From: an alpha proteobacterium U9-1i
GTDB lineage: Bacteria; Pseudomonadota; Alphaproteobacteria; Caulobacterales; Aquidulcibacteraceae
Direction of reading: 5' to 3'
DNA: 64,000 nucleotides
Assembly: GCA_000974665.1 (NCBI GenBank)
Contig: BBSY01000002.1
Coordinates: forward strand, 930,001 to 994,000
In this document: in pieces, positions 37,132-64,000 of the stretch
Layout of the letters: each line of letters starts with the position of its first letter
Position numbering within the stretch: the first letter of the stretch is position 1
Made by a program: the position numbers and the translations under genes
The notes under the pieces: model-generated
Told to the model about the DNA's origin: nothing
The model's input: the letters and a program-made list of their open reading frames with translations, nothing else
The model's database searches: none

Positions 37132-39228
37132 ATGCCCGATCACGTTTCCATCACGCGTTTACCGGACGGCGTGGCGCTGCTGACTTTGGACTCGCGTTCC
37201 ACGGCGATGAATGTGGTGTCGCCGGACTGGCTTTCGGAGATGGAATCCGCCGTTGACGAGATTGCGGCGGACAAGACCTGCGTCGGCGCCGTGATCACGT
37301 CCGCCAAACCGACATTCATGGCGGGCGCGGATCTGAAACATATCCTCGCGTGGTGTGAGGCGGGCGTCAGCGAAGCCGAAGCTCTGGCATATTCTGAGCG
37401 CGCGACGGTGCTGCACCGCCGAATTGAGACAAGCGGACAGTCGTTCGTCGCTGCCATCAATGGATTGGCGCTCGGTGGGGGATTCGAACTCGCTCTTGCT
37501 TGCCATGCGCGTGCAGTGGCGGACGCGCATGGCGTGGTCGTGGGATTGCCCGAAGTTACTGTCGGGCTGTTGCCGGGTTCCGGAGGAACGCAACGCCTCG
37601 CACGCATCACGCCACCCGCAGTCGCGCTTGATCTGTTGCTCAGTGGCCGGGCTGTAAAGCCGAAGGAGGCGCTAAATCTCGGGATTATCGACATCATCGC
37701 GCCGACCGATGCGCTGATCGAGCGCGCGGCCGCTTGGGTCCGAGCAAACCCCGGCGCTAAGCGATCGTGGGATCAGAGCGCGCCCGAGCATGGCGCTGTG
37801 CCGGATGCTCCGCAAACGCACCCAAAATACCCCGCGCAGGCAGCCATTGTGCGCTGTGTTCGAGAGGGAATAGCGTTGCGCTTCGATGACGCTTTAGCGC
37901 TGGAGTCACGCGAATTTGCGCGGCTGCTCACTGGCCCGGTCGCGCGCAACATCATCCGCACGCAGTTCGTGAACAAGGGTTTGGCGGAGAAGGGCGCGCG
38001 CCGTCCCGAAGGCTTCGAAAAACGTTGCGTGACGCGCATCGGCGTTTTAGGCGCGGGCATGATGGGTGCGGGCATCGCCCACGTTTCCGCGTGCGCGGGT
38101 ATGGACGTCACACTGATAGACATCGCCGATGACGTGGCCGAACGCGGGAAGGACCATTCAGCGCGCCTTCTGGGCAAGGATGTCGATAAAGGTAAGCGCA
38201 CGAGGGCTGATCGCGACAATGTCCTAGCCCGTATCCACACCTCGTCGCGCTTCGATGACCTTGAACGCTGCGAACTTGTTGTCGAGGCCATTTTCGAGAA
38301 CAAAGCCGCCAAGGCAGAGGTGACGCGCAAAGCCGAGGCGGCGGTGGTTGGCGAATTTATCTTTGCGTCCAACACATCAACCTTGCCGATCACCGGGCTG
38401 GCTGCCGCCTCGCGCACGCCCGAGAGCTTTATCGGCCTCCACTTCTTTTCGCCCGTAGAGCGGATGGCGTTGGTGGAGGTCATCGTCGGCAAACACACTT
38501 CCCCACAAACTTTGGCATGGGCGCTCGATTTCGTCGCGCAGCTGCGAAAGACGCCTATTGTCGTCAACGACTCCCGAGGCTTTTACACAAGCCGCGTGTT
38601 CCAGACCTACATACACGAGGGTATGGCCTTGCTGCAGGAAGGTGTGTCGCCGAGGCGCATCGAAGATTGCGCAGTGGCGGCAGGTATGCCTATCGGTCCG
38701 TTGGCATTGCTTGACGAGGTCACACTTGAGCTGCCGATGAAGATTGTGCGTGAGGCCGAAGCGGAGCTGGGCGCTACTTTCAAGCGTCCCGTCTCGTACG
38801 ATGTCATGCGCCGCATGTTGGATGAGTTTCACCGCCCGGGACGAAAAGCCGGCGGCGGGTTTTATGAGTACGATGGGAAAGGCAAGGCGCTCTGGCGAGG
38901 TCTGGCGGCCGCCTTCCCCGAAGCCGCAAGTCAGCCAAACGACGCCGAGATTGAAGCCCGGCTCCTCTACATTCAGGCGCTTGAGGCGGCGCGATGCTTT
39001 GAGGAAGGCGTGCTCAGCACGGCGGCCGACGCCGACCTGGGCAGTGTCCTCGGTTGGAACTTCCCGATTTGGACCGGGGGGACGCTGTCACTCATAGATA
39101 CGATCGGCGCGTCCGCCTTCGTGACGGCTTGCATTGAGCTGTCCGAACGTTGCGGCGAACGATTTGCGCCGTCGCCTTGGCTCCGGCAACGCGCCGCCGC
39201 CGGCCTGCGCTTCCATGAAAGTGCATAA
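37132..39228 (+). CDS. FadJ-like fusion: enoyl-CoA hydratase / 3-hydroxyacyl-CoA dehydrogenase
   Basis: 698 residues from ATG 37132; the conserved box spacing (34 nt) also supports this start. Residues ~1-190 are a crotonase domain (AGADLKHI oxyanion loop, ALGGGFELALACHARAV, LPEVTVGLLPGSGGTQRL with the catalytic Glu). From ~300 comes the NAD-binding Rossmann motif GVLGAGMMGAGIAHVSA, then IGLHFFSPVERMALVEVI with the catalytic His, and two C-terminal HAD domains (DSRGFYTSRVFQTYIHEG). It performs hydration and NAD oxidation steps of beta-oxidation. First gene of a two-gene operon with an acyl-CoA dehydrogenase. Confidence 0.93.
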   Translation: MPDHVSITRLPDGVALLTLDSRSTAMNVVSPDWLSEMESAVDEIAADKTCVGAVITSAKPTFMAGADLKHILAWCEAGVSEAEALAYSERATVLHRRIETSGQSFVAAINGLALGGGFELALACHARAVADAHGVVVGLPEVTVGLLPGSGGTQRLARITPPAVALDLLLSGRAVKPKEALNLGIIDIIAPTDALIERAAAWVRANPGAKRSWDQSAPEHGAVPDAPQTHPKYPAQAAIVRCVREGIALRFDDALALESREFARLLTGPVARNIIRTQFVNKGLAEKGARRPEGFEKRCVTRIGVLGAGMMGAGIAHVSACAGMDVTLIDIADDVAERGKDHSARLLGKDVDKGKRTRADRDNVLARIHTSSRFDDLERCELVVEAIFENKAAKAEVTRKAEAAVVGEFIFASNTSTLPITGLAAASRTPESFIGLHFFSPVERMALVEVIVGKHTSPQTLAWALDFVAQLRKTPIVVNDSRGFYTSRVFQTYIHEGMALLQEGVSPRRIEDCAVAAGMPIGPLALLDEVTLELPMKIVREAEAELGATFKRPVSYDVMRRMLDEFHRPGRKAGGGFYEYDGKGKALWRGLAAAFPEAASQPNDAEIEARLLYIQALEAARCFEEGVLSTAADADLGSVLGWNFPIWTGGTLSLIDTIGASAFVTACIELSERCGERFAPSPWLRQRAAAGLRFHESA

Positions 39229-39231
39229 AGA

Positions 39232-40389
39232 ATGCGTCGATTGATCTTTGACTCCGACCACGACCTCTTCCGTCAGCAAGCAAGGCGCTTCTTTGAACGC
39301 GAGATTGCTCCAAATGCGGGGACGTGGCGCGCGCAGGGCTTCGTGGACCGTGAGGCTTATCTCAAAGCCGGCGCGGTGGGCTATTTGTTGATGTGGGCGC
39401 CGGAGGAATATGGCGGCGCCGGCATTGATGATTTTCGCTATGAGCAGATCGTTTACGAGGAAAACATTCGCCACGGGGAGCCGGGCTTTTACATCAATCT
39501 GCACTCCGGTTTGGTCGCGCCCTATATCGGCAAGCTCGGCAGCGCTGCGCAGAAGTCGAAGTATCTTCCTACCTGCGCGCGCGGAGAAACGATCCTCGCT
39601 GTCGCCATGACCGAGCCGTCAACGGGCAGCGATCTCGCCGGCATCACCACGCGCGCGGAGCGCCGCGGCGAAGGCTGGGTGCTCAATGGGGCGAAAACCT
39701 ACATCTCAAACGGTCAATTGGCCGACATCGTGATCGTCGCGGCGCGCACGGATCCGAACGCGCGTCACGGCATCGGTCTCTTCATTGTTGAGCGTGGGAT
39801 GGCCGGCTTCGAGCGCGGCCGGCGGCTTGCAAAGATGGGCCTGCACGCACAGGACACGTCCGAATTGTTTTTCGAGAATGTCGAGCTTTCAGCGAGCCAT
39901 GCTCTCGGTGATCCGAGCAAGGGGTTTGCCTACCTGTCGCAATTTCTCGCCGGCGAGCGTTTGATCGCCGCTATTGGCTCGACGGCGGCGGCGCAAACCG
40001 CCTTTGATGTGACGTTGGAATACGTTCAGCAGCGCCGCGCTTTCGGCCGGCCGATTGGGACGTTTCAGAATGCGCGGTTCATACTAGCGTCGCTGCGGGC
40101 GCAACTGGACGCGGTGCAAACGCTCGTGGATCAATGCGTGCTGCTCTACAATTCCAGCGAATTGACGCCGGAATTGGCGGCGGAGGCAAAACTTCTCTCC
40201 AGCGAAATCGAAGCGGCGTGCGTGGACGAAGGCGTTCAGCTGCACGGCGGCGCAGGCTACATGGAGGAATTCCGCATCAGCCGGCTCTACACCGATGCGC
40301 GCGTTTCAAGAATATTCGCGGGATCAAGCGAGATCATGAAGGAGATCATCGGGCGCGGCCTCGGTCTTGACGAGCGAAAGCTGCGCTAG
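39232..40389 (+). CDS. acyl-CoA dehydrogenase (short/branched-chain type)
   Basis: 385 residues. FAD-binding and active-site motifs: LAVAMTEPSTGSDLAGI, GWVLNGAKTYISNG, YVQQRRAFGRPIGTFQ, QLHGGAGYMEEFRISRLYTDARVSRIFAGSSEIMK. It introduces the alpha-beta double bond in an acyl-CoA and passes electrons to ETF. It starts 3 bp after the FadJ-like gene. The stop overlaps that of the convergent flavoprotein gene by 4 bp. Confidence 0.93.
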   Translation: MRRLIFDSDHDLFRQQARRFFEREIAPNAGTWRAQGFVDREAYLKAGAVGYLLMWAPEEYGGAGIDDFRYEQIVYEENIRHGEPGFYINLHSGLVAPYIGKLGSAAQKSKYLPTCARGETILAVAMTEPSTGSDLAGITTRAERRGEGWVLNGAKTYISNGQLADIVIVAARTDPNARHGIGLFIVERGMAGFERGRRLAKMGLHAQDTSELFFENVELSASHALGDPSKGFAYLSQFLAGERLIAAIGSTAAAQTAFDVTLEYVQQRRAFGRPIGTFQNARFILASLRAQLDAVQTLVDQCVLLYNSSELTPELAAEAKLLSSEIEAACVDEGVQLHGGAGYMEEFRISRLYTDARVSRIFAGSSEIMKEIIGRGLGLDERKLR

Positions 40390-41495
40390 CTGTTGAGGTC
40401 GATCTCCCCGTTGACGCGCTCCATCGTGTCGACGACTTCGCGCATCATTTCGTCCAGCACGGCTTTGCAGGGGCGGCGCGCGTTAAGCAGCCCAACCGCC
40501 TGGCCGACAGCGTGGCTCATCAAGGTTTTCACGCCATTCTGGTAGACGCGGTGATAGAGCGGCCGCATGAGCATGCCCTGTTGCGGGGCGGGCAGAGTCG
40601 GCGGGGCGCCTTCTTCAAGCCAAACTTGCTCCAGTGGCGTGTGCAGCATTCGCACAGGCTTACCGGTGACGCTTTTGGTGCGCACGGTTTGCGCGGAATC
40701 CGCAGCCAGCAGCTTGTCGATCATGCGCGGATCGGTGTCGCTTTCATGGACGGTAAGCCAGAGCGAACCCGTCCATGCGCCTTGAGCGCCGAGTGCAAGC
40801 ACGGCCGCAAGTTGCCGCCCCGTGGCGATGCCGCCCGCGGCAAGCACGGGGATCGGCGCAACGGCGTCCACGACCTGCGGCGTGAGCACCAAAGTCGAAA
40901 TTTCACCGGTGTGGCCGCCGGCTTCACTGCCTTGCGCAATGATGACGTCGGCGCCGGCCGCCGCGTGCAGTCGCGCGTGCTTTACCGAGCCGCACATGCC
41001 GCCGATCAAAACGCCTTGATTCTTCGCTTGCGCCATGATTTCGGGGCTGAACGGGCCGAGTGCGCTGACAAGGAACTTGATCGGGTGCGAGAGCGCGAGG
41101 CGAACGTGTGCATCAAGCGTCGCGCGGCTCACGATGATGCCGCTGAATTCCTGCGGCGTTGGCCCGTCCGTTTCCGGCGGAATGCGCAGCCGCTCTTCAA
41201 TCTGTGCGACAAACTCGCGATGCTCTTTCGGGATCGAGTGCTCAAGCGCCGTTAGATCGGCATCCTCTGTCGCCGGCGAGAGCGAGGGGGCCAGCACGTC
41301 AACGCCGTATGGTCGCCCATCAACGTGTGCGTCGATCCAGTTCAGTTCGATCTCAAGCTGCTCGGGCGTGAATTTCGCGGCGCCGAGAACGCCAATGCCA
41401 CCCGCTTTGCTGACAGCCGCAACGACGTCACGGCAATGCGTAAACGCGACGATCGGATAGTCGATGCCGACCAGTTTGCAGAATTGCGTTGTCAC
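40386..41495 (-). CDS. nitronate monooxygenase-family FMN flavoprotein
   Basis: 369 residues, a TIM barrel of the 2-nitropropane dioxygenase family: DYPIVAFTHCRDVVAAVSKAGGIGVLG at the N-terminus, GVLIGGMCGSVKHARLHAAAGADVII, GSEAGGHTGE with the active-site His, and PVLAAGGIATGRQLAAVLALGAQGAWTGS for FMN phosphate. Relatives include nitronate monooxygenases and enoyl reductases of fatty acid and steroid pathways; within this island a reductase or CoA-ester role is as likely as nitronate oxidation. Its ATG overlaps the MFS stop. Confidence 0.82.
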   Translation of the reverse strand: MTTQFCKLVGIDYPIVAFTHCRDVVAAVSKAGGIGVLGAAKFTPEQLEIELNWIDAHVDGRPYGVDVLAPSLSPATEDADLTALEHSIPKEHREFVAQIEERLRIPPETDGPTPQEFSGIIVSRATLDAHVRLALSHPIKFLVSALGPFSPEIMAQAKNQGVLIGGMCGSVKHARLHAAAGADVIIAQGSEAGGHTGEISTLVLTPQVVDAVAPIPVLAAGGIATGRQLAAVLALGAQGAWTGSLWLTVHESDTDPRMIDKLLAADSAQTVRTKSVTGKPVRMLHTPLEQVWLEEGAPPTLPAPQQGMLMRPLYHRVYQNGVKTLMSHAVGQAVGLLNARRPCKAVLDEMMREVVDTMERVNGEIDLNS

Positions 41496-42766
41496 GCGGG
41501 CTGCTCGGCGGCGCCGACAGTGCGCTCCTGCGCCGGCGCGGCGGGGTACGGCGACAGCATGAACATCAGCAATGAGGCCAGCAGCGAAATGCCAATCGCG
41601 GACATCACAAGCAGATCGTATGTGCCGGTCCGGTCATGGATGAGGCCGCCGAGCACTGGCCCGATACCGGCGCCTGTGGTGAGCGTCGCCGCATAAAGGC
41701 CGAACAGGACCCCGTACGATTTCAGCCCGAAATAGCGCGTGGTCGAGTAGGAGAGCACGTCCGCCTCGGCGCCGAGCGCCAAGCCAAACGAAATCGCGGC
41801 GGGATACCAAAGCAGCGGCTCGCCATCGCTGAACAGCACAAGCGTGCAAGCGATCGCTGGCAGCAATGAGAACGAGCCGCCGACAAAACGTGCGTGAACG
41901 CGATCGATTAGAAAGCCGCTGATCAAGCGACCGGCAACCGAGGACAGGCCGATGAGCCCCGCGATGGCGGCGGCGGTTGTGCGCGGCACGCCTTCCTCCG
42001 TCAGCATCGGCACGAAGTGAACGATGAGGCCGAGCAGTGCGGCGATGAGAAACAGCGCCGCGAACAGCAGCTGCCAAAATGTGACCGTACGCAGCGCCTG
42101 CGCGACCGTGACGCCTTCCGGCGTCCAGGCATTTACGGCGCGTCCCTTCTTTCCCTTCGCCGCAAGGCTTCGGCGATCGTGGAAGAGAAAGAAAGTCGCT
42201 GGCAAAATGAGCACCGCCGCGATCAGGCCAAGGCCGATATAGGCGCCGTCCCATCCGAAGCGTTCAACCAACGCATTCGCGACCGTCGGCAATGTTGCCG
42301 TGGCGATGCCGGCGCCTGTGAGCGAGATGCCGAGCGCCAGGCCGCGCTTTTTGTCGAAGCGGCTGGCGACGCCGCTTGTCCAAACCGTGATGCCCGCCAT
42401 GACGTGGCCAATATTGACGAGCGCGTAGCCGATCCACCACTTATAGAGTTCCGGCCCCACTTGGCTCAGGAGAGCAAGCGCCGGGCAGAAGATGAGCATG
42501 CCGAGCAAGGCGACGTTGCGCGCGCCAATTCTGTCCAACAGAATGCCGACCAACGGATAGCCGATCACACCAACAATCGCGCTCACGATCGTGGCGCTTG
42601 TAATCTGGGTCCTCGTCCACCCGAACGCTTGCTCAAGCGGCTCGATAAAGATCGTCAATGAGTAGACGTGGAAATTGGTGACGACCAAACCGAGGACGGC
42701 GCAAAAGATGACCGGCCAACCGTCTCGAAACTCGCGCGTCGGCGTAGTGTCAGTGTGTGCGGTCAT
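41492..42766 (-). CDS. MFS transporter (OFA-like carboxylate carrier)
   Basis: 424 residues with about 12 membrane helices. The helix 2-3 loop motif GYPLVGILLDRIGARNVALLG and the helix 8-9 GRLISGFLIDRVHARFVGG are typical of the major facilitator superfamily; the first helices (WPVIFCAVLGLVVTNFHVYSLTIFIEPLEQAFGWT) resemble oxalate/formate and monocarboxylate carriers. It probably imports the carboxylic acid substrate of the island. Cotranscribed with the flavoprotein downstream. Confidence 0.85.
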   Translation of the reverse strand: MTAHTDTTPTREFRDGWPVIFCAVLGLVVTNFHVYSLTIFIEPLEQAFGWTRTQITSATIVSAIVGVIGYPLVGILLDRIGARNVALLGMLIFCPALALLSQVGPELYKWWIGYALVNIGHVMAGITVWTSGVASRFDKKRGLALGISLTGAGIATATLPTVANALVERFGWDGAYIGLGLIAAVLILPATFFLFHDRRSLAAKGKKGRAVNAWTPEGVTVAQALRTVTFWQLLFAALFLIAALLGLIVHFVPMLTEEGVPRTTAAAIAGLIGLSSVAGRLISGFLIDRVHARFVGGSFSLLPAIACTLVLFSDGEPLLWYPAAISFGLALGAEADVLSYSTTRYFGLKSYGVLFGLYAATLTTGAGIGPVLGGLIHDRTGTYDLLVMSAIGISLLASLLMFMLSPYPAAPAQERTVGAAEQPA

Positions 42767-42877
42767 GGTTGCTCAGTAAGCTGCTAATGGGGCGCCAAGC
42801 GTGTCGCGAAGTGTGGCAGACATGGCAGGGTTCGCGCCTGCCGGCCGGTAGGTGCGCCGCGCGCCTGCAGCGCCTCG

Positions 42878-45544
42878 CTAATGCAGCATGCCGAGCTGAC
42901 GAGCTCGCTCAACCGCCTGCGGCCGTCGACGCACGCCGATCTTGTCGTAAATCTGCTGCATATACCATTTCACGGTGCCTTCGGTCAGGCCGAGCCGTGC
43001 GCCGATCTCACCGTTGCGCATGCCGCGTCCAACCAGCCGCAAAATCTCCACTTCGCGCGCATTGATCGCTCCGGCAACGCCTGGATCGTCCTCTTCCGGA
43101 GGTGGAGGCGTGCTGGACGCCATGTTGGAAGCATCGGGGGACCGAGCAAAGATTTCTCGCGCGAATTGCTCGATCGGCCCGTTTGTCTCGATCTGCCCGC
43201 AATAGCCTTCGGCGATGAGCCGCTGGATGAACGGCCCTTCGTCAAGGAAACTGCGGATGAAACGGCCTGCGACAGCGTTGCTCAGTGCCTCGTGCAGCAT
43301 TCGCTTTGCCGCTGCGACGTCGCCCCGCGCGCCGTGGATCTGCGCGGCGATAATGCACCAGCGGACCAATGTGCGCAGAGCACCGCGACTCATGCAGAAG
43401 TGCCGCCAGCGCTTGGTGACCGTAAGCGCTTCGTTCATGCGATCCCGGCTCGCCGCCAAACGTGTCCAAGCGATCGCGCGAATTTCGTCGCGCTGATTGG
43501 AGCGTGCGTTCGGCGAGACCGCGTCAATATCCACGTCCAAATGCTCGCGTCTGCCTTCCCGGAGCGCCAGATCCGGGCGTCCGTTGCGAATCCATATGCG
43601 GATGCGCTCGGCGGAGGCGCTGATGCTCAAGCGATCGAGATTGCATTCGAGCGCGACGCGTTTGCCTTCATCCAAGACGCGAAGCGCCGCCTCCACGTCG
43701 CCTTCAGCTTGGTGCAGGCGATTCAACGTGATGTAGCCACTATGGAGTTGTTCCGAAAAGCCGAACTCACGTGCGACCGGCAAGTGATCCCGGACCAACT
43801 GATCGGCTTCCGCGCGCTCGTCGACTTCAAACAAGATGCGCGCAAGCGGCAACGCGGCCAAAGCCGCCTGGCCGGAACGGCCGCCTGAGATGCGATTCGC
43901 TTCCGCCAAGGCTTGCTCAAGTGATTCGCGCGCAGCTTGCGTGCGGCCCGAATGAAACAAGCCGATGCCCAACGCAGCTTGCAGGCCAATCGCCGCGAAC
44001 CGATACCCTGAGCGCGACAGCGCCGAGCGCGCGCTCGATTCAATGCGCGTAAAATCATCCAGCCGATACTGCGTGTAACGCGCGGTCAGCATCTGGCCGT
44101 AAAGCGTGCAGGTTAGATAAGGGCGCGAGTCCCCAAGTTCGCGCAGCAAATCTTCCGATTGGGCATCGACATCCGCCATCTCGTCGTCTTTGGCGGTCGC
44201 AAGCACGGTCTGACGGTGCTTCAACATGAGCCGCAGCATCGCAATCGTTGCGTCGGGCGCCTCGTGCTCACGTTCCATCTCGTCAATGCGCCGCGCGGCC
44301 TGATCGAGCACGCGTTGCGTTTCATCGAAGCGAAGCTGGCGCGTGTGTAGCCAAGCCATCATAAGCAATGTCTTTGGAAGGGTGTTGAGCAGCTCCTTTG
44401 GCAGTGCTTCCGCGTGCCGTGCGACCCAGGGCAGGGCGCCTTGGTAGGTCATCTCCTCGCTATTGGCTTCGAGGAAATCGGCCACTTTGCTTGGGTCGCG
44501 CGCCTGCGCCACATGCTCGAGCGCGGCGATGAGTTGGCCGTCGCGCGCAAGCCACATGCTCGCCCTTTGATGCAAGGCGGCGAGCTTTTGGTCGTGTCCA
44601 GCTTGTAGCTTCTCTTTTAGGAAGGCAGCGAACATTGGATGCAAACGATACTTCGCGTCCGCGGTGTTGCTGAGTTCTAGAAAAAAGCCGGTTTGCTCCA
44701 GCCGCCTCAGGCGCGCCCGGCTGTCGGTGTCTTCCGTGACCGCGTCGCACAGGGCGGGGCAAAGTTCGTCCAGGATACTGACGCTCAACAAGAAGACGCG
44801 GTCTGCCGCGCTTACTTCGGCGAACACCTCTTCCTCAAAGAAGTCAGCGATCGCGTGCGCGGCCCGTGGATCGTTGGTGCGTGTGAGCGCGTCCAGGCCA
44901 AGACGAACGCCGACGGGCCAGCCGTGCGCGCTCTCCAATAACTGTGCTGTGTCTTCTGGCAGGCGTTGCGCGGCTTTGACCATCGCCGCGCACTCAGCGT
45001 CGCCTAGGGCGAGCTGAGCTGCGCCAAGTTCCGCGAGCGCGCCATGCGCCCGCAGACGCGCGAGCGAAAGGCCCGCCACGCTTCGCGTCGCGAAGACGAA
45101 CCGGGCGCCAGCCGGTGCAAGGCTGACGACACGCATGAGGAGATCCGCCCCGGATTTTGCCAACACATGCACGTCGTCGATGAAAACTGTGAAACTCTCC
45201 CGCCCCGTCAGCGCGTTGGCGATGAGTTCAGCCAATGCAGTTTCGTGTGGCGCAATGGCAGCGCCGGTAATGCCGTAATGGAGCTGCTGCGCGAATTCAG
45301 CGGCGTCACGAGCGTCTCTGTCGCATGTGATCCAGCAGGAGGGCGCGCCAGAATTCTGCAGCACCGTTGCCCATTGCGACATGAGCGTCGTCTTGCCATA
45401 GCCGGCGGGCGCGGCGAGCATGGTGAGCAGCACCTCCGGCGCCTGTGCGAGCGTAGCCGAACGCGAAACCACACCGGGTGGGATTGGCGGCGGTATGAGG
45501 CGGGTTCTTACGGCTCCCTCCGGTTCGTTTCCTCCACGCCTCAT
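42878..45544 (-). CDS. large ATP-binding LuxR-family (MalT/LAL) regulator
   Basis: 888 residues from ATG 45544 (the frame extends to 45595 without better support). Walker A APAGYGKTT at residues 45-53, Walker B FTVFIDDVHVL near 130, a helical arm with TPR-like superhelix (about 330-790), and a C-terminal LuxR HTH (NAREVEILRLVGRGMRNGEI, then GLTEGTVKWYMQQIYDKIG). This is the architecture of STAND activators such as MalT, where an inducer triggers ATP-dependent assembly on tandem boxes. It is the only regulator gene in the island and is divergent from the SDR operon with the nested palindromes in between. Confidence 0.9.
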   Translation of the reverse strand: MRRGGNEPEGAVRTRLIPPPIPPGVVSRSATLAQAPEVLLTMLAAPAGYGKTTLMSQWATVLQNSGAPSCWITCDRDARDAAEFAQQLHYGITGAAIAPHETALAELIANALTGRESFTVFIDDVHVLAKSGADLLMRVVSLAPAGARFVFATRSVAGLSLARLRAHGALAELGAAQLALGDAECAAMVKAAQRLPEDTAQLLESAHGWPVGVRLGLDALTRTNDPRAAHAIADFFEEEVFAEVSAADRVFLLSVSILDELCPALCDAVTEDTDSRARLRRLEQTGFFLELSNTADAKYRLHPMFAAFLKEKLQAGHDQKLAALHQRASMWLARDGQLIAALEHVAQARDPSKVADFLEANSEEMTYQGALPWVARHAEALPKELLNTLPKTLLMMAWLHTRQLRFDETQRVLDQAARRIDEMEREHEAPDATIAMLRLMLKHRQTVLATAKDDEMADVDAQSEDLLRELGDSRPYLTCTLYGQMLTARYTQYRLDDFTRIESSARSALSRSGYRFAAIGLQAALGIGLFHSGRTQAARESLEQALAEANRISGGRSGQAALAALPLARILFEVDERAEADQLVRDHLPVAREFGFSEQLHSGYITLNRLHQAEGDVEAALRVLDEGKRVALECNLDRLSISASAERIRIWIRNGRPDLALREGRREHLDVDIDAVSPNARSNQRDEIRAIAWTRLAASRDRMNEALTVTKRWRHFCMSRGALRTLVRWCIIAAQIHGARGDVAAAKRMLHEALSNAVAGRFIRSFLDEGPFIQRLIAEGYCGQIETNGPIEQFAREIFARSPDASNMASSTPPPPEEDDPGVAGAINAREVEILRLVGRGMRNGEIGARLGLTEGTVKWYMQQIYDKIGVRRRPQAVERARQLGMLH

Positions 45545-45582
45545 GTTTGGGCGCGTATTTTGGTTGTTTCGGACTATGCCGG

Positions 45583-45637
45583 CGATAGGCGCCACGCAAA
45601 CCCTATCTACAGATAGGTGGCCCGTCTGCGCCTATCG
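45583..45637. promoter_or_regulatory. nested palindromic box 2
   Basis: The core CCTATC-TACA-GATAGG (45602-45617, extending to a 7-2-7 dyad) ends 34 nt before the GTG at 45652. It is flanked by a perfect 10-bp inverted repeat, CGATAGGCGC (45583-45592) and GCGCCTATCG (45628-45637), with nearly the same centre, so four GATAGG half-sites lie in a symmetrical array. The left outer half-site is centred 42.5 bp from the LuxR ATG at 45544. Confidence 0.78.
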
Positions 45638-56182: not shown

Positions 56183-56233
56183 CGCATCGACGCTTTCATT
56201 GAGCGCAATAAGCTCTCGCTCCGGTCTGCCTCG

Positions 56234-56249
56234 CCTATCCTGGGATAGG
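56234..56249. promoter_or_regulatory. palindromic box 3 in the divergent promoter
   Basis: CCTATC-CTGG-GATAGG, part of an 18-bp perfect dyad GCCTATCC-TG-GGATAGGC (56233-56250). It ends 34 nt before the ATG at 56284 on the plus strand and also lies 34 nt before the minus-strand ATG at 56199. It is centred in the 101-bp divergent region between the Old Yellow Enzyme and carboxylase operons. Confidence 0.82.
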
Positions 56250-56283
56250 CTTTCCCATCGGCATCTCGCGCTTAGGTCCTACC

Positions 56284-57849
56284 ATGGCCAAAAGCGTGCC
56301 CCCCGTTTCCTGGACGAGCAAGCTTGCCGACCTGGACGCGCGGCAAGAAAAGGCCCGCGCGATGGGTGGCGAGACCGGCCTCGCGCGCCATCGGGCGTCC
56401 GGCCGGTTGCCGGTCCGCGAGCGCATTGAGCGGCTGATCGATCCAGGATCTTGGTTCGAACTGGGGGCGCTCGGCCTGCCGGAGCTTCGGACGGATCGCC
56501 ACGTCCCCGGCGACGGGGTTGTCACCGGCTTTGCGATGCTCGACGGACGTCGTGTCGGCGTGGTCGGTATCGATTCAAGCGTGCTTGCGGGCACCACGGC
56601 GCCAACGTCGATGCGTAAGCAGGGACGCTTGATTGAGCGCGCGCAGGATTGTGGCTTGCCGATCGTGCTCCTGTGCGACGCCGACGGCGGCCGCATCCCC
56701 GATATCATGGGCTGGCGCTTCTCGCACCTCCCGCTCGACTTCGACACGTTCATCAAGCCACGCGCCAATCAGGCGCCGACACCGCGTGCCGCGGCGATCC
56801 TAGGGCCGTCCTACGGCGATTCCGCGCTGCACGCTTCGACAGCGCATTTCGTCGTTATGGTGCGTTCTGGCGCGGTGGCGCTCTCCGGTCCGTCCGTCGT
56901 CGCAAACGCGATCAGCGAAGAGGTGACCGACGCTGAGCTCGGCGGGCCTGAGGCGGCGCAGGCGGTCGGCAACGCGCACATGGCCGTTGAAACCGAAGAC
57001 GACGCCTTTGCCGCAGTGGCTGCCTTCCTGTCCTACCTCCCCGCCAACGCCGCGCTGCCGGCGCCGCTCGCCGCGGCAAGGCCGCCGTCAGTTTCGCCCG
57101 ATCAACTCACGCGCATCGTCCCGCTCGATCCTCGCACAGGCTACGACATGCGCGCCGTGATCGACGCGATCGTGGACGAGGCCACCGTGCTTCCGTGGGG
57201 CGCGGGCTGGGGGCAAAGCCTGATCACGGCGCTGGCGCGGATCGAAGGTCACCCCGTGGGCATCGTCGCCAATCAACCGCTTGTACGGGCTGGCGCGCTG
57301 GATCCGGCGGCGTTGGCGAAGCAGCGCGACTTCGTCGATCTCTGCGACACGTTCAATCTGCCGCTGGTGTTTTTGCAGGACGTGCCGGGTCTGATGATCG
57401 GCAGTCAGGCTGAGCGCGGCGGCATTCTCAAAGGTTATGAAAAGCTGGTGGCGCGCATCACCGAAGCGCGCGTGCCGAAAGTTGGAATTGTGCTGCGCAA
57501 AGCTTACGGCGGCGGCCATTTCGCAATGGGCGGCCGCCCCACGCATCCGCATTTCCTGTTCGCTTGGCCAAGCGCTGAAATGGGCTTCATGGCCCCGGAC
57601 ACAGGCGTGCAGACGGTTTATCGCCGCAAGCTTGAGCAAGTGCGTGCTGAGCAGGGTGACGCCGCGGCCGACGAACTTGCCGCGGTGATGGTGGCGGAAT
57701 GGACCACGGAGAGTGAGCCATGGGAGGCCGCGGCACATCTCGCTTTGGATGATGTCATCGCGCCGGCGCAAACGCGCCGCGTGATCGCGGAAAGTCTGGC
57801 GATCGCATGGGGAGAGCGGCCCGCGCGCGTCGCGAGACCGTGGCCATGA
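56284..57849 (+). CDS. acyl-CoA carboxylase carboxyltransferase (beta) subunit
   Basis: 521 residues, two crotonase-like halves: N-terminal RLPVRERIERLIDPGSWFELGAL and GVVTGFAMLDGRRVGVVGIDSSV; C-terminal FLQDVPGLMIGSQAERGGILKGYEKLVARITEARVPKVGIVLRKAYGGGHFAMGG, the biotin/CoA site of carboxyltransferases. It transfers CO2 from carboxybiotin to an acyl-CoA; the partner alpha subunit is at 61058-62812. Substrate could be methylcrotonyl-, geranyl- or propionyl-like. First gene of a four-gene operon. Confidence 0.9.
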   Translation: MAKSVPPVSWTSKLADLDARQEKARAMGGETGLARHRASGRLPVRERIERLIDPGSWFELGALGLPELRTDRHVPGDGVVTGFAMLDGRRVGVVGIDSSVLAGTTAPTSMRKQGRLIERAQDCGLPIVLLCDADGGRIPDIMGWRFSHLPLDFDTFIKPRANQAPTPRAAAILGPSYGDSALHASTAHFVVMVRSGAVALSGPSVVANAISEEVTDAELGGPEAAQAVGNAHMAVETEDDAFAAVAAFLSYLPANAALPAPLAAARPPSVSPDQLTRIVPLDPRTGYDMRAVIDAIVDEATVLPWGAGWGQSLITALARIEGHPVGIVANQPLVRAGALDPAALAKQRDFVDLCDTFNLPLVFLQDVPGLMIGSQAERGGILKGYEKLVARITEARVPKVGIVLRKAYGGGHFAMGGRPTHPHFLFAWPSAEMGFMAPDTGVQTVYRRKLEQVRAEQGDAAADELAAVMVAEWTTESEPWEAAAHLALDDVIAPAQTRRVIAESLAIAWGERPARVARPWP

Positions 57850-58631
57850 GCGCCAGTATGTTGCTTGTGAGCCGCGAGGGCGCGACCGCGACGCTCACAC
57901 TCTCGCGTCCCGAAAAGCGAAATTCGCTGACGCGCGAGTTCTGGGCGGAGATGCGTGCCTGTTTGAGCGCACTCGAGAATGACGGAGAAACGCGCACCGT
58001 CATCATCACCGGCGCCGGCGACACCACTTTTTGCGCCGGCGGAGATATCGCCAGCTTCAAGGCCCTCAAGGATGAAGCCGAGCGCAGGGCCTTCCAAATT
58101 GACGCGATGGCGACGTTCACCGCCATCGAGCAAACCCCACTGGTGGTTATCGCAGCGATTAATGGCCTCGCGTTCGGCGGCGGCTGCGAGCTTGCGCTGG
58201 CTTGCGACATTGTCGTTGCCGCCGACCACGCCCAATTCGCCATGCCGGAAGCCGCGCTGGGGCTCACGCCTGGTTTCGGCGTGCTGCGTGCGCCCGATGT
58301 GATTGGCCGGCACTGGACCAAGTTGATGGTGTTCGCCGGCGAAAGAATTTCGGCTGCGCGAGCGCTTGAGATTGGGCTCGTTCAAATCGTGACGCCGGCA
58401 GATGGCCTGATGGCGCGCGCTAAAGAGATCGCCGCGCGTGTCGCTGCCTCCGGGCCGCAGGCGCAGGCCGTCGGCAAGCAACTCATCAATCGTGAGATTG
58501 ACGCGAGCGGCGTCGATCATTCCGTTGATCTGCTCACGATGCTTCAAGGTTCAAGCGAATCCGCAGAGGGCGTCGCCGCGTTTCTCGAGCGGCGTAAGCC
58601 CAACTTTACGAAGGGCGTGAGGCGCCCATGA
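57846..58631 (+). CDS. enoyl-CoA hydratase/isomerase
   Basis: 261 residues from ATG 57846, overlapping the carboxylase stop (ATGA). Crotonase motifs: RPEKRNSLTREFWAEM, AGGDIASFKAL (oxyanion loop), GLAFGGGCELALACDIVVAA, MPEAALGLTPGFG with the first catalytic Glu position. It may hydrate the carboxylated enoyl-CoA, as LiuC/AtuE do in leucine and terpene pathways (inference from the neighbours). Confidence 0.9.
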   Translation: MSASMLLVSREGATATLTLSRPEKRNSLTREFWAEMRACLSALENDGETRTVIITGAGDTTFCAGGDIASFKALKDEAERRAFQIDAMATFTAIEQTPLVVIAAINGLAFGGGCELALACDIVVAADHAQFAMPEAALGLTPGFGVLRAPDVIGRHWTKLMVFAGERISAARALEIGLVQIVTPADGLMARAKEIAARVAASGPQAQAVGKQLINREIDASGVDHSVDLLTMLQGSSESAEGVAAFLERRKPNFTKGVRRP

Positions 58632-59425
58632 ATCCCTTCGTCTCGATCATGCGCCGCTACTGCACCAATTACGTGAATTGCCACGATTTCAGCGTGCTGC
58701 CCCAGATCATGGTGGATGATTATGGGCTTAGCATGGGTGAGCACGTCCTGCGCGGACGCGATACCCAATACCTGAACGCAGCCCGCATCCAGATGACGGA
58801 CATCTCCGGCATGCTGCTCACCGTGCATGAGATCGTCACCAACGGCGAGCGCTTGGCGATGCGCTTTTCCGAGCATGGCGCGTCGCGTCGCAACCACGGC
58901 AAGGTAGCGTCTTGGGCAGGCATTGCGCTCTACCAATGGGACGGCGAACGCCTGTTGCATTGTGCGGTCGAGCAGGATTACCGCGCCCGCAAGCGTCAAT
59001 ACGCCAACGCCGCCGCGGACTTGGTCGACACTCCCGCCGCTGCTCCGTGGGACACCGTGGCTGCGCCCGCGGATCAGGAAAGCGAACGCGTCGTTCGCGC
59101 GTGGCTCGCGGCGGGTATGCCGCGTCGGGGCGCCGTAAGCTTCGATGACGAATGGCTGGGCGTCGAGCCTGAGAGCGTTCTCGCGCCACAGGAAACAGAA
59201 GTGCTCGACCTGTTCTCCGCGGGCTCAACCGTTGCATTTCGTGTCAGGCAAGTCGGCGCGCTTGCTCCAGGTTTTCTTGATGGCGCACTCGCGGGCATAC
59301 CAGTGTTCTTGCACAGCGCCGGCATCGTAAGAACCGCGGGCGGCGGAATTGTGGGTGGGCGTATCGTGCGCGACCGCATGGGGCTTGAGCGCAGGCTTCG
59401 CAACAATATCGTGAAGGTGACGTGA
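58628..59425 (+). CDS. two-domain SnoaL/NTF2-like protein
   Basis: 265 residues. The first ~125 residues are an NTF2-like barrel (NCHDFSVLPQIMVDDYGLSMGEHVLRG, MRFSEHGASRRNHGKVASWAGIALYQWDGERL); after a linker of ~40 residues a second ~90-residue domain (LDLFSAGSTVAFRVRQVGAL, GIPVFLHSAGIVRTAGGGIVGGRIVRDRMGL) has the same kind of layout. Function is unknown; such proteins can be dehydratases or isomerases. Coupled to both neighbours (ATGA, TGATG). Confidence 0.72.
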   Translation: MNPFVSIMRRYCTNYVNCHDFSVLPQIMVDDYGLSMGEHVLRGRDTQYLNAARIQMTDISGMLLTVHEIVTNGERLAMRFSEHGASRRNHGKVASWAGIALYQWDGERLLHCAVEQDYRARKRQYANAAADLVDTPAAAPWDTVAAPADQESERVVRAWLAAGMPRRGAVSFDDEWLGVEPESVLAPQETEVLDLFSAGSTVAFRVRQVGALAPGFLDGALAGIPVFLHSAGIVRTAGGGIVGGRIVRDRMGLERRLRNNIVKVT

Positions 59426-61077
59426 TGGGCATGAAAGCGGCCGCGCATCAGCAACTCGACACATCGACAACGCTTGGCGCCTTGCTGATGCGGCAGGCGG
59501 CACGGCGCGGTGAGGCGCTGTGCGCGGCTTTCGACGCTGAAGGTGAGTTCAGTTATTCCGAAATCGCACGCCGCGCCACGCGCGCGGCGAAGGGCCTGTC
59601 AGCGCTGGGAATCGCGAAAGGTGATCGTGTCGCGATTCAAATGCCGAACTGCGTGGATTTCCTGATCGCGCACTATGCGGTGCAATTGCTGGGCGCAGTC
59701 AGCGTTCTCGTGAATGCGCGGTTTAAGACCCACGAGATGTCGCATGTTTTCCGACACTCCGGCGCGAAGGTGTTCTTCACGACCACGCTGATCGATGATC
59801 ATGTGAATTTCGCCGATCTGTTGTGGCAGACCTTGCCGGAGCTTGAAGGGGTATCGGGCGGCGCGCCTTTGACGCTTCGCGCCGCGCCCGACTTGCGGCA
59901 CGTCGTGTTGTGCGGCGCCGGCGCCCGCCCTCCGGCGATGACATTCGCCGCGCTGGAAGATGCCGGCCATGGAGTGAGCGACGCCGTTCTCGCGGGCGTC
60001 GACGAACGCAGCAACGCAGATGACATCGCCTTGATGCTCTACACCTCCGGCACGACCGCCGCGCCAAAGGGGTGCCAGCTCACGCATCGCGGCATGCTGG
60101 CGAGCTGGGCGGGTTATGCGGAGGTCGCGGGCGTCGCTGAAGGAGAGACGATTTGGGTGCCGTTGCCGTTTTTCCACGTCGGCGGCGTTGGCCCGTTCAC
60201 AGCCGCACTATCCTCCGGCGCGGCGTTCTTCACAGCCGCGCACTTCAACCCGACGAACGCGCTGGCGCAGATCAGGCGCTACAAGCCGGAGCACCTCTAT
60301 CCGGCCTTCTTCAATATCGCTCTGCCGCTCATGCGCGAACCGGACTTCAAGAAATCGGATGTTGCCGAGGCGCGCACCATGCTGTGTGTCGCGCCGAACA
60401 AAACGCAATACGTCATGCGAGAGCTAATGCCCGAACACATCGCCGTCATGCAGGTTTTCGGCATGACGGAAGCGTCCGGCATCGTCACGTTGACCCGTCC
60501 GGGCGCGTCGCTCGAGCATCGCCTAGAAACCAACGGCACGCCGCTGCCAGGCGCGGAAATCCGCATCGCCGACCCGGAAACAGGTGCGGTCCTCGGGCCG
60601 GATTCGCCGGGTGAAATTCAATTTCGGGGCGCGGGCGCGTTCCACTCCTATTATCGCGACGAGGAGGCGACGCGGCGCACCATTCTCGCCGGGGGCTGGG
60701 TCGCGACCGGTGATTACGGCAAGATCGACGCCAACGGCGCCACGCACTTCATAGGCCGCATCAAGGATATGCTGAAGGTCGGTGGCGAGAACGTTGCGGC
60801 GGCCGAAGTTGAAGCTTTCCTGAGCATGCACCCCGCGGTGAAGATGTCTCAGGTCGTCGGCAAAGCGGATGAGCGTTACGGCGAAGTGCCGGTGGCCTTT
60901 GTCGAGCTGCTGCCGGACCACGCCGCAAGCGAAAGCGAGTTGATCGAGTTCTTCGAAGGCAAGCTTGCGCGCTTCAAGACGCCGCGCCGAATTTTCTTCG
61001 TCACCGAGTGGCCGATGTCGGCGACCAAGATTCAGAAGTTCAAGCTGCGCGAACAGCTCACGCGGCTGGAGCAATAG
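59425..61077 (+). CDS. acyl-CoA synthetase (AMP-forming)
   Basis: 550 residues from ATG 59425. MLYTSGTTAAPKGCQLTH phosphate loop, VFGMTEASG, hinge ATGDYGKIDANGATHFIGRIKDMLKVGGENV, and catalytic Lys in ATKIQKFKLRE. Of the medium-chain/crotonobetaine-like ligase type. It is the last gene of the carboxylase operon, and its 3' end overlaps by 20 bp the convergent biotin carboxylase gene. Confidence 0.92.
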   Translation: MGMKAAAHQQLDTSTTLGALLMRQAARRGEALCAAFDAEGEFSYSEIARRATRAAKGLSALGIAKGDRVAIQMPNCVDFLIAHYAVQLLGAVSVLVNARFKTHEMSHVFRHSGAKVFFTTTLIDDHVNFADLLWQTLPELEGVSGGAPLTLRAAPDLRHVVLCGAGARPPAMTFAALEDAGHGVSDAVLAGVDERSNADDIALMLYTSGTTAAPKGCQLTHRGMLASWAGYAEVAGVAEGETIWVPLPFFHVGGVGPFTAALSSGAAFFTAAHFNPTNALAQIRRYKPEHLYPAFFNIALPLMREPDFKKSDVAEARTMLCVAPNKTQYVMRELMPEHIAVMQVFGMTEASGIVTLTRPGASLEHRLETNGTPLPGAEIRIADPETGAVLGPDSPGEIQFRGAGAFHSYYRDEEATRRTILAGGWVATGDYGKIDANGATHFIGRIKDMLKVGGENVAAAEVEAFLSMHPAVKMSQVVGKADERYGEVPVAFVELLPDHAASESELIEFFEGKLARFKTPRRIFFVTEWPMSATKIQKFKLREQLTRLEQ

Positions 61078-62812
61078 TACAAAGCCGGGCGCCGGTCGTC
61101 ACCGCATCGCCCGCTCGAACGTTGACCGCCGCCACCTGACCTGCGCGCTGCGCCAGAATGGGCATTTCCATTTTCATCGCTTCAAGCGTGGCGATGAGAT
61201 CACCGGCCGTAACGATGTCTCCGACATTCACGGCTACACTGATTACCAGGCCATCCATAGGTGAAATTGGGTCGGCGCTCGCAGCAGCGCGCGCGTCGGC
61301 GTGTGCTGTCTGCCGGCCGGCGACGCCGCCCGTGGCTGCTGCGGCTGCGGTGTGAGCAAGACCGCCAATGCGAACATTGAGCACGCCGCGATCGGTGGCG
61401 ATGTTCACGCGCCGCTCTGCAGGGCGTATAGAGGTCGGTGATGGAGCCGGTTCTCGCTGCTCGCCCTCTGGCGCCCAATCGCGCTCCACCGATCCTGTGT
61501 CGTGCGTTGCGGCGGCAAAATCCGGTTTTACCAGGACCTGCGCGAGATAGGGAGCGGTCGTGACCACGCCATCGGCCGAAAACTCCGTCAGCGCGCTGAC
61601 AAGTTTCGCGCAAGCGCTTTCGCGGTCATCGGACACAACAAGAATTTTACCAAACATCGAATCATACTCAGCCGCGATCGCATCGTTTGACTCGATGCCG
61701 AAATCGCAGCGAACGCCGCGTCCGCCTGGCAGTCGCAGCGCGCCGCAACGGCCCGGCTGAGGCGCGAAGCGTCGCCACGGGTCTTCGGCCGCGATACGCG
61801 CTTGAATGGCGTGCCCGCTGACGCGCACCTGCTTTTGAGTAAGCCCGAGGCGTTCACCCGCGGCGATCCGCAGTTGCAGTTTTACGATGTCCCGGCCGGT
61901 CACCAATTCGGTTACGCCGTGCTCAACTTGAAGCCGCGTATTCATCTCCAAAAAATAGAACGCCGTAAGCGCGTGATCGACCAGGAACTCAACCGTCCCA
62001 GCGCCCACATATTTGACCGATTGCGCGAGTGTGACCGCGGCGCGAAGCATCTCTTCGCGCAAGGCTGTCGGCAAGTTCGGCGCTGGCGCTTCCTCGACAA
62101 GTTTTTGGTGGCGGCGTTGGACGGAGCAATCTCGATCGCCGAGATGCAGAACGTTGCCGTGATTGTCAGCCACGATCTGTACTTCCACGTGCCTGGGGCG
62201 ATCTAAGTATCGTTCGAGATAGATCTCGCCACGCCCAAAGGCGTTGATGGATTCGCGCACGGCTGAGGCGAAGGCGGCGTCCAATTCGGTTGCGTCGTGC
62301 ACTGCGCGGATGCCACGTCCACCACCGCCAAAGCAGGCTTTGACCGCAATCGGATAGCCGATGCGTTCCGCGTTGTGGTGCGTACCTGCCGCATCGCTGT
62401 CGATGACGTCGGCGCCGGGCAAGATCGGCAGCCCGCACGCATGCGCTGCGGCGCGCGCTGCAACTTTGTCGCCCATCACGCCGATAACGTCCGCTGGCGG
62501 ACCGATAAAGATGAGCCCGGCATCGGCAACAGCTTGCGCAAATGCGGCGTTCTCACTCAGCATGCCGTAGCCAGGGTGCACGGCGTCCGCGCCCGACGCG
62601 CGCGCGGCGGCAATAATCGCATCAATGTTCAAATAAGAGTCACGCGCTGGCGCTGGGCCAAGGCGAAAGGCGGCGTCGGCCAGGCGGACATGCAGCGCAT
62701 GCTCGTCCGCATCACTGTACACGGCGACCGTGCCCACCTTGAGGTCACGGCATGCGCGAATGATGCGCACCGCGATCTCGCCTCGATTGGCAATGAGGAC
62801 GTTTTTGAGCAC
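61058..62812 (-). CDS. acyl-CoA carboxylase alpha subunit (biotin carboxylase + biotin carrier)
   Basis: 584 residues. Biotin carboxylase: NVLIANRGEIAVRIIRACRDL, HPGYGMLSENAAFA, GDKVAARAAA, ATP-grasp loop KACFGGGGRGIRAV, LGDRDCSVQRRHQKLVEEAPAP, FYFLEMNTRLQVEHGVTE. After a variable linker the C-terminal carrier domain has the biotinylated Lys in LEAMKMEMP. It is shorter than many alpha subunits (about 650-670) because the linker domain is reduced. It pairs with the carboxyltransferase at 56284. Confidence 0.93.
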   Translation of the reverse strand: MLKNVLIANRGEIAVRIIRACRDLKVGTVAVYSDADEHALHVRLADAAFRLGPAPARDSYLNIDAIIAAARASGADAVHPGYGMLSENAAFAQAVADAGLIFIGPPADVIGVMGDKVAARAAAHACGLPILPGADVIDSDAAGTHHNAERIGYPIAVKACFGGGGRGIRAVHDATELDAAFASAVRESINAFGRGEIYLERYLDRPRHVEVQIVADNHGNVLHLGDRDCSVQRRHQKLVEEAPAPNLPTALREEMLRAAVTLAQSVKYVGAGTVEFLVDHALTAFYFLEMNTRLQVEHGVTELVTGRDIVKLQLRIAAGERLGLTQKQVRVSGHAIQARIAAEDPWRRFAPQPGRCGALRLPGGRGVRCDFGIESNDAIAAEYDSMFGKILVVSDDRESACAKLVSALTEFSADGVVTTAPYLAQVLVKPDFAAATHDTGSVERDWAPEGEQREPAPSPTSIRPAERRVNIATDRGVLNVRIGGLAHTAAAAATGGVAGRQTAHADARAAASADPISPMDGLVISVAVNVGDIVTAGDLIATLEAMKMEMPILAQRAGQVAAVNVRAGDAVTTGARLCTIAPAA

Positions 62813-62818
62813 GCTCCC

Positions 62819-63274
62819 TCAGCCAGCCTTCGGTCGCGTCAACATAAGGACCGACCATTCGCCCGTCTGCACCACCTCGTCCCGTTGATTGAGAACGTCG
62901 AGCTGCCGAACGAGCACGCCGCGGTCGGGCTTGGAAGCGCTCGCGCGCGCTTCTTTGACAATGATGCGCACGTGGATGGTGTCGCCGGCGCGAATGACGC
63001 CAGTGTACCGCCAAGTCATGCCGAGAAAACCGAGGGCGGTTCCTCGTAAATGACCCAGCTGGCTTACAAGCCCGCTGGCGATCGAGGCGCCAAGCAGGCC
63101 CTGGGCGATGCGCGTGCCGTGCTGGGTTTGCTTGGCATACTCCTCGTCAACGTGGAGCGGATTAAAGTCACCAGAAAGCCCGGTGAATATGACAATGTCG
63201 GCCTCCGTGACTGTGCGCGCGGCGGTGATAAATTCTTGGTCGGGACTGAAATCTTCCAGGTACATGCCGCTCAT
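62819..63274 (-). CDS. MaoC-family (R)-specific enoyl-CoA hydratase
   Basis: 151 residues. Hydratase-2 motif with catalytic Asp and His intact: TGLSGDFNPLHVDEEYAKQTQHGTRIAQGLL; N-terminal EDFSPDQEFITAARTVTEADI; C-terminal DTIHVRIIVKEARAS. It hydrates a trans-2-enoyl-CoA. Located between the DUF35 protein and the carboxylase alpha subunit on the minus strand with gaps of 3 and 6 bp. Confidence 0.9.
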   Translation of the reverse strand: MSGMYLEDFSPDQEFITAARTVTEADIVIFTGLSGDFNPLHVDEEYAKQTQHGTRIAQGLLGASIASGLVSQLGHLRGTALGFLGMTWRYTGVIRAGDTIHVRIIVKEARASASKPDRGVLVRQLDVLNQRDEVVQTGEWSVLMLTRPKAG

Positions 63275-63277
63275 GCC

Positions 63278-63696
63278 TTAGCGTACCTCCGTGGGTCGGA
63301 ATTGCGGAATTGCGATCTCCGCGCCGCGTAGCTCGAACCAGACGCTGACCGGCATGCCGATGTGAACGTCGTCCGGTGCGCAATCCGTAACGTTCGCCAT
63401 AATCCGCGGACCTTCCGCGAGATCGATCAGCGCGAGGATGTAAGGGACACGACTGCGGAAGGTTTGATCCGGCGCCCGGTGTACGACGGTGCAGGCGTGC
63501 ACCACGCCACGGCCACTTGCTTCGCGCCACTCAAGCGCGCCGCTTCCGCATGAGGGGCAGAGGAGGCGTGGGTAGAACATCGCCTCGCCACACGTTTGGC
63601 ACGTACGCAGCACGAGCTTTCCTTGAGCTGCCTTGCTCCAATACTCGTCGGAATCACCCGTCGGTCTGGGCGCTGGAAGCGTCGGTTCGGTCATGA
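63278..63696 (-). CDS. DUF35 / Zn-ribbon OB-fold acyl-CoA-associated protein
   Basis: 138 residues; the ATG lies at 63692-63694, so the true 5' end is 63694. Zn ribbon with two Cys pairs (TCQTCGEAMFYPRLLCPSCGS) followed by an OB fold (GRGVVHACTVVHRAP, VPYILALIDLAEGPRIMANV). DUF35 proteins bind and stabilise SCP2-type thiolases or retro-aldolases, as ChsH2 does for Ltp2 in steroid degradation. Its start overlaps the thiolase stop. Confidence 0.88.
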
Positions 63697-64000
63697 CGCG
63701 CCTCCGAGGATCAGGCTTGAATGGGTCGAGAGAATGCCGCCATTGCCGTGAACGAAGGCCAGTGACGCATCGGTGACTTGCCGCTTGTCGCACTGGCCGC
63801 GCAGCTGGCGCACGGCCTCTACAATGTGAAACACGCCGCCGGGCCGACCTGGGTGGCCGTGCGAGAGCAGACCGCCATGTGTGTTGACCGGGAGCGCGCC
63901 ACCGAGACCGATTGCGCCGCTTTCTACATATGCCCCGGCTTCTCCACGCTTGCAGAAGCCGAGATCCTCCAGGAGCAGCAGCACGGTTATCGTGAAGCAA
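63691..64000 (-). CDS. SCP2-type thiolase/aldolase, C-terminal part (5' end outside window)
   Basis: About 103 C-terminal residues, continuing past the window end. FTITVLLLLEDLGFCKRGEAG, PVNTHGGLLSHGHPGRPGGVFHIVEAVRQLRG (active-site His in SHGHPG) and AFVHGNGGILSTHSSLIL. The C-terminal HGNGG replaces the CxGGG of ordinary thiolases, as in SCP2-type lipid-transfer thiolases and the retro-aldolase Ltp2. The pairing with a DUF35 gene supports an aldolase or specialised thiolase role. First visible gene of the minus operon that ends with the carboxylase alpha subunit. Confidence 0.85.
   Translation of the reverse strand, partial: CFTITVLLLLEDLGFCKRGEAGAYVESGAIGLGGALPVNTHGGLLSHGHPGRPGGVFHIVEAVRQLRGQCDKRQVTDASLAFVHGNGGILSTHSSLILGGAS

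Follow-up and report, generated by a model that had tools for sequence, protein, structure and literature searches.

A mosaic acyl-CoA island with a carboxylase of a rare group, possibly for a branched or alicyclic carboxylic acid, in the alphaproteobacterium U9-1i

The locus considered here raises two questions: which acyl-CoA would call for a dense run of catabolic genes in the alphaproteobacterium U9-1i, and whether these genes serve a single pathway. The window, that is, the whole stretch of 64,000 nucleotides that was analysed, corresponds to C2:930001-994000 of a genome that comprises 4.05 Mb on five contigs, and the island in it, as defined by domain search, covers positions 37132-64000 plus 5.5 kb past the window end and holds about 28 catabolic genes. 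A sequence-only reading had described a single, tightly packed set of catabolic genes acting on an unusual acyl-CoA, and had taken this substrate to be branched or cyclic; the gene content supports this description, including a probably branched or cyclic substrate. It is suggested, with slightly more confidence than reserve, that the island is a mosaic through which a branched or alicyclic carboxylic acid, probably a terpenoid-like one, would be degraded at the stage of its acyl-CoA esters, with three modules combined in it: a carboxylase together with its crotonase and double SnoaL partners; a kit of FadB, acyl-CoA dehydrogenases (ACADs), a MaoC pair, an Old Yellow Enzyme (OYE) and short-chain dehydrogenases (SDRs); and a cassette of MaoC hydratase, DUF35 protein and putative aldolase. 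Each part is of a familiar kind, and what is new lies in how they are combined and in the clade of the carboxylase.

The carboxyltransferase (CT, the beta subunit of the biotin-dependent carboxylase; 56284-57849, plus strand) matches the Pfam family Carboxyl_trans with 342.7 bits. The alpha subunit, a biotin carboxylase joined by a short linker to a biotin carboxyl carrier domain (BC; 61058-62812, minus strand), carries the biotin motif; between QVEH and AMKM it is some 46 residues shorter than the alpha subunit of the host's own methylcrotonyl-CoA carboxylase (MCC); by sequence, both subunits are intact. Given that a set of ACAD, CT, crotonase and BC resembles the Liu/Atu operons, and that the CT keeps to the general carboxyltransferase family (about 33-38% identity to the PCC-type proteins present in nearly all genomes of the order), it could be argued that the enzyme is an ordinary leucine (MCC), geranyl-CoA (GCC) or propionyl-CoA carboxylase (PCC) and that the remaining genes are generic beta-oxidation genes. 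However, this is hardly credible, and is largely refuted by the tree. In a phylogeny that took the host's own MCC, the Pseudomonas and human MCC and PCC types as references, the reference sequences being their aligned parts, the CTs of the window, of 'Hyphomonadaceae bacterium PRO2' (same genus as the source and the nearest named genome) and of Pseudonocardiales share a branch (100/99) that is distinct both from the MCC clade (100/100) and from the PCC-type reference group (94/93). The comparison with MCC, GCC and PCC that had been proposed was thus made by phylogeny for MCC and PCC, the CT lying outside both, whereas GCC was set against it by score alone, outside the tree. Ranked by score against solved structures, the relatives are transcarboxylase 12S, YCC (5inf), an AccD4-like protein (9t97) and PCC, then MCC and GCC, with GCC below both MCC and PCC; the window CT nevertheless stands on a separate branch from these closest solved relatives, and reads FMAPDTGV where PCC, YCC, AccD4-like and transcarboxylase relatives have a VMGAEGA-like sequence.

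Furthermore, the whole genome holds four full CT-type genes and two shorter Pfam matches, among them an MCC CT at C2:921456, outside the island, which aligns end to end with MCC, so that leucine degradation is accounted for, and a PCC-like CT at C3:486041. The domain search matched no HMG-CoA-type (3-hydroxy-3-methylglutaryl-CoA-type) lyase among the scanned island proteins. Leucine, geranyl-CoA and plain propionyl-CoA carboxylases were rejected as identities on the tree, the scores and the separate host copies; judged in this way, the enzyme is one of a rare group, neither the leucine nor the propionate carboxylase. The link to Liu/Atu pathways that had been drawn from the carboxylase type does not hold, since the CT lies outside the MCC clade and GCC scores lower still. 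What the island has in common with those systems is that genes for a ligase, an ACAD, a biotin-dependent carboxylase and a crotonase are grouped, whereas the island differs in the clade of its CT, the shorter alpha-subunit linker, the aldolase-like protein and the lyase that was not found. On the window CT's side of the tree also lie the uncharacterised CTs of a Cupriavidus plasmid, of a Rhodococcus plasmid and of the host's fourth gene; this fourth CT (C3:1294388-1295812) is very divergent and groups with a CT of a Cupriavidus oxalaticus plasmid.

An orthologue of the window CT is present in two of 299 genomes of the order, the source included, the only other genome being PRO2 (69% identity). 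At the strict cut-off no further genome matched in a sample of 385 across the class, and the cut-off was passed by three of 299 genomes in the order of a Pseudonocardia genome. The CT, BC, crotonase (57858-58631, plus strand) and double SnoaL/NTF2-like protein (58628-59425, plus strand) recur as a rare module in this one congener and at three Pseudonocardiales loci, L097, L098 and L099, to which the module identities are 48-69%. At two of them, L097 and L099, the crotonase and double SnoaL genes come after the CT, and BC adjoins it on the opposite strand; L098 has CT, BC and crotonase, the SnoaL protein not being within the stretch. The crotonase is 50-59% identical beside the CT at all three loci and BC is 51-59% identical to its module partners; each locus also has, near the module, genes for a ligase, a two-domain ene-reductase and an LLM protein, and L097 has two P450s and a ferredoxin as well. 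In PRO2, ACAD 1 (39232-40389, plus strand, in the window; 76%) sits beside the CT, and the locus also holds the double SnoaL protein (49%), BC (55%), the ligase corresponding to acyl-CoA ligase 2 (59425-61077, plus strand; 52%) and an SDR (55%). Beside ACAD 1 in PRO2 (L045, about 9662-9829) there is a 56-residue remnant of the end of FadB, a sign of rearrangement. The double SnoaL protein is 48-51% conserved near CT; with a mean pLDDT of 65 its AlphaFold model is a low-confidence one, and searching by fold points at most to an NTF2/SnoaL-type fold, while kinetochore chains, which are unrelated and have poor TM-scores, took the lowest E-values.

Two further loci resemble the island in part. At a Pseudonocardia locus (L046) the CT is less closely related (54%) and lies with a MaoC-type pair, an LLM protein and a biotin protein encoded separately. 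A conjugative plasmid of Cupriavidus oxalaticus (L103, 3207-20000) brings together two CTs, a BC, MaoC proteins and a pair of DUF35 and thiolase in which the nucleophilic Cys is retained; carboxylase, MaoC and DUF35-thiolase genes are combined there too. The exact mixture, with the CT module and the F420 proteins, was found at no other locus, and no literature was found on the mixture or on a Pseudonocardia carboxylase cluster; the earlier statement that no described cluster has this mixture is therefore upheld for the exact combination, and qualified by the partial likeness of the Cupriavidus plasmid and of the edc cluster described below. No close homologue with a proven ordinary function appeared among the syntenic loci found. 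With leucine and acyclic terpenes, carboxylation by MCC and GCC is a known means of getting round methyl branches. A separate, mobile carboxylase module retaining its crotonase and double SnoaL protein across two phyla would offer a new handle on the degradation of recalcitrant branched or ring-shaped natural products, and CT, BC, crotonase and double SnoaL protein make a small, testable gene set.

The mode of cleavage bears on the same question. Thiolytic cleavage by an SCP2 thiolase with DUF35, as the sequence-only reading had it, is not supported, the nucleophilic Cys being missing. In alignments to CtSal (9myr) and Ltp2 (6ok1), the thiolase-fold protein (63691-64860, minus strand, running past the window end at 64000) has Gly at the position of that Cys and a YDCF motif at residue 286 where CtSal has YDCY, and Leu and His at the positions of Sal Gln347 and Gln352. 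CtSal likewise has Gly in the Cys place, and its retro-aldol cleavage relies on Tyr302 and Cys304 within YDCY (PMC12329534). Because of the Gly and the YDCF, as in Sal, an aldolase role is proposed, and retro-aldol cleavage appears likelier than thiolysis. Pairwise comparison, by scores only, gave 331 bits for 4u4e, 239 for 9myr and 198 for 6ok1. A relative on an Achromobacter plasmid (54%) has the same Gly and YDCF pattern, and the whole cassette of MaoC, DUF35 and thiolase-fold genes is also found there, whereas the thiolases of L046 and of the Cupriavidus plasmid (DUF35-linked) keep the Cys (CAS). 'Thiolase' annotations in such clusters can hence hide aldolases. The DUF35 gene (63278-63694, minus strand) overlaps the aldolase-like gene by 4 bp and encodes a stand-alone protein with OB_ChsH2_C and zf-ChsH2 domains and a C4 zinc ribbon (CQTC...CPSC); next to it is a MaoC hydratase with a GDFNPLHVD motif (62819-63274, minus strand).

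This raises the possibility that the island is a steroid or bile-acid side-chain cluster, in which MaoC, DUF35 and aldolase would shorten the chain and the carboxylase would handle the propionyl-CoA released. The catalytic residues are those of CtSal, CtSal and Ltp2 are among the best-matching solved structures, and the Sal/Shy and Ltp2-ChsH2 systems share with the island the thiolase fold, the DUF35 partner, Gly for Cys, Tyr-Asp-Cys and a hydratase next door (PMC12329534). The edc estrogen cluster of Caenibius tardaugens is similar too, with ChsH2-like and lipid-transfer proteins, ACADs, two MaoC genes and a TonB receptor together (PMC7793797); compared by description, not by sequence, it differs in having ring-cleavage genes, and the paper mentions no carboxylase. 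Nevertheless, a side-chain cluster is unlikely: no protein of the whole genome exceeds the HsaA cut-off of 450 bits (best 92.6), the DUF35 protein is stand-alone and C4 with a separate MaoC, neither MaoC-fused nor of the Cys3His1 type of Shy, and the host already has an ordinary PCC-like CT while the window CT lies outside the PCC reference group. The likeness to steroid side-chain degradation that had been noted thus extends to the hydratase and aldolase-like parts and not to thiolytic cleavage. A 9,10-seco steroid pathway was rejected on the HsaA result.

The terpenoid-like substrate of the preferred reading is suggested by the relatives of the second module on two plasmids, pSA2 of Novosphingobium resinovorum SA1 and pCME4A9I of Croceicoccus marinus E4A9. 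FadB, a FadB-like enoyl-CoA hydratase/3-hydroxyacyl-CoA dehydrogenase (37132-39228, plus strand), is 56% identical to its pSA2 and 54% to its pCME4A9I counterpart and is followed by ACAD 1 in the same order on both, where ACAD 1 is 64-68% identical near FadB. ACAD 3 (53838-55004; up to 74%), a divergent protein (53404-53838) and a MaoC hydratase (53012-53446), all on the minus strand, also keep their order on both plasmids. The Zn-type (MDR) quinone oxidoreductase/dehydrogenase (52014-53015, minus strand; 54% to both), an SDR (51233-52006, minus strand; 58-59%) and the LuxR/MalT-type (LAL) regulator (42878-45595, minus strand; 35-36%) adjoin on both, and the OYE-type ene-reductase (55076-56182, minus strand) is 46-49% identical. 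A Massilia plasmid carries related FadB, ACAD and nitronate monooxygenase-like genes, the last 43% identical to the nitronate-monooxygenase/FabK-like flavoprotein of the island (40386-41495, minus strand). The plasmid kit clusters also carry Rieske dioxygenase, P450, VOC and FAA hydrolase genes, and the described content of dit clusters resembles theirs (PMC13063091), a likeness of gene content and not of dit sequence. FadB, two ACAD types, the MaoC pair, OYE, SDR, Zn-dehydrogenase and LAL regulator are thus common to the island and the dit-like plasmid clusters at 35-74%, but these clusters have a ring dioxygenase, of which the source genome has no close homologue (best match 65 bits, partial); a dit-like ring dioxygenase elsewhere in the genome was rejected on this weak partial match. 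No carboxylase module was seen in the plasmid stretches fetched.

The split MaoC pair proposed earlier stands for one catalytic half, the MaoC protein at 53012-53446 with its DPNPIHLD motif; the divergent protein beside it lacks a hydratase motif and has no Pfam match even at E=1, and is probably an inert MaoC partner, a role suggested by its fixed place beside MaoC on several plasmids.

The F420-type proteins that had been noted in the island are borne out by its LLM class protein (47080-47994, minus strand), which exceeds the TIGR03619 cut-off (229 against 167 bits), by an F420H2-dependent quinone reductase/Ddn-like match (47991-48521, minus strand) and by F420 biosynthesis genes in the genome. 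The CofD family (185 bits), CofE (236) and CofG/FbiC (468) were all matched above cut-off, and a CofC-like gene was recognised beside CofD by position and start sequence; the CofD profile matches E. coli too, so that CofE and CofG carry the argument. These genes lie at C4:68957-71186 and C4:99405-101426 on a 188-kb contig, and the first group is set among type III CoA-transferase and ACAD genes. Real use of F420 by the island proteins is possible, although the LLM family also includes FMN users. On the Croceicoccus marinus plasmid (L113, 1-1881) cofH/fbiC stands next to an LLM gene close to the kit, which suggests that F420 genes travel with such clusters. A bolder proposal would join the new-clade carboxylase with its double SnoaL protein and the Sal-like DUF35 aldolase into a carboxylation-dependent, terpenoid-type route for a branched or alicyclic acid with F420-dependent reductions, in which the former would activate a blocked carbon and the latter would cut the product in place of an HMG-CoA lyase or a thiolase, the carboxylase core having moved between actinobacteria and alphaproteobacteria; it is put forward tentatively, and is rather improbable as a whole.

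Whether the modules form one pathway depends in part on how they came together. At the left edge of the island lies tRNA-Ser(GGA) (36878-36967, plus strand), a site of variable content in the genus: nine congeners keep a kinase, a response regulator and the tRNA-Ser and have other genes beyond the tRNA in the kilobases fetched, as at an accessory-gene hotspot. The GC content at third codon positions of the island genes is lower (0.731 against 0.763, P about 7e-5), and so are their coding scores, the latter a guide only as the model was trained on the same region. The island is probably accessory and horizontally assembled. A second copy of at least 14 bases of the tRNA 3' end was absent from a 140-kb region, so that a tRNA-Ser duplication was rejected as the right end of the island, and with it neither a right boundary nor an insertion of integrase type is demonstrated.

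Given this site, two or three catabolic modules, independent of each other and each with its own substrate, could have accumulated here. The modules do have separate relatives, in Pseudonocardiales, on sphingomonad plasmids and on the Achromobacter plasmid, and the tRNA-Ser site is variable in congeners. This explanation is nonetheless doubtful, though to be taken seriously: in PRO2 the kit's ACAD 1 stands directly with the CT module, the units of the two strands are interleaved, and in actinobacteria as well the CT module is found with OYE-type enzymes, ligases and SDRs. The single-pathway mosaic for a branched or alicyclic acid has its own difficulties. The carboxylase module and the aldolase cassette occur together nowhere else in the data and therefore may serve different pathways; given neither a close homologue of that ring dioxygenase nor an HsaA above cut-off, 'terpenoid-like' rests on the neighbours of homologues; and the classical thiolase normally adjacent to FadB is absent, the thiolase gene which adjoins FadB on both sphingomonad plasmids and in Massilia being replaced in position by tRNA-Ser. 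Abscisic acid was considered as a substrate, and no supporting paper was found.

In the single-pathway mosaic, the acid would be taken up by the TonB receptor and the MFS transporter and converted to its CoA thioester by the FadD ligases, an assignment at family level. The ACADs would desaturate it, and the OYE, Zn-dehydrogenase and F420-type enzymes may reduce enones. The dedicated biotin-dependent carboxylase would act on an acyl- or enoyl-CoA whose branch blocks beta-oxidation, crotonase and MaoC proteins would hydrate, FadB and SDRs would oxidise, and the Gly/YDCF thiolase-fold protein with DUF35 would cleave a beta-hydroxyacyl-CoA by retro-aldol reaction, as its catalytic residues suggest.

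The domain tally comprises one FadB-type protein, three ACADs, two FadD ligases, CT, BC with a biotin domain, enoyl-CoA hydratase, MaoC proteins and DUF35, with further matches to LLM, Ddn-like, OYE, nitronate monooxygenase-like, LuxR/MalT-type regulator and MFS families. More than 20 tightly spaced genes in five transcription units had been described; content and spacing agree, but the units number six, with overlaps of 1 to 43 bp or short gaps within them. FadB and ACAD 1 form the first. The second holds the nitronate monooxygenase-like gene, the MFS transporter of lactate/oxalate-formate type (41492-42766, minus strand) and the LAL regulator. An SDR (45652-46590, plus strand) follows, and then a minus-strand run of a SnoaL_4 (NTF2-like) protein (46585-47073), LLM, Ddn-like protein, ACAD 2 (48525-49673), FadD-like acyl-CoA ligase 1 (49683-51239), SDR, Zn-dehydrogenase, MaoC, divergent partner, ACAD 3 and OYE. 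The final units are CT, crotonase, double SnoaL protein and ligase 2, and BC, MaoC, DUF35 and thiolase-fold protein. Past the window end, to about 69490, there follow the TonB receptor, a TIGR03617 LLM protein and a crotonase.

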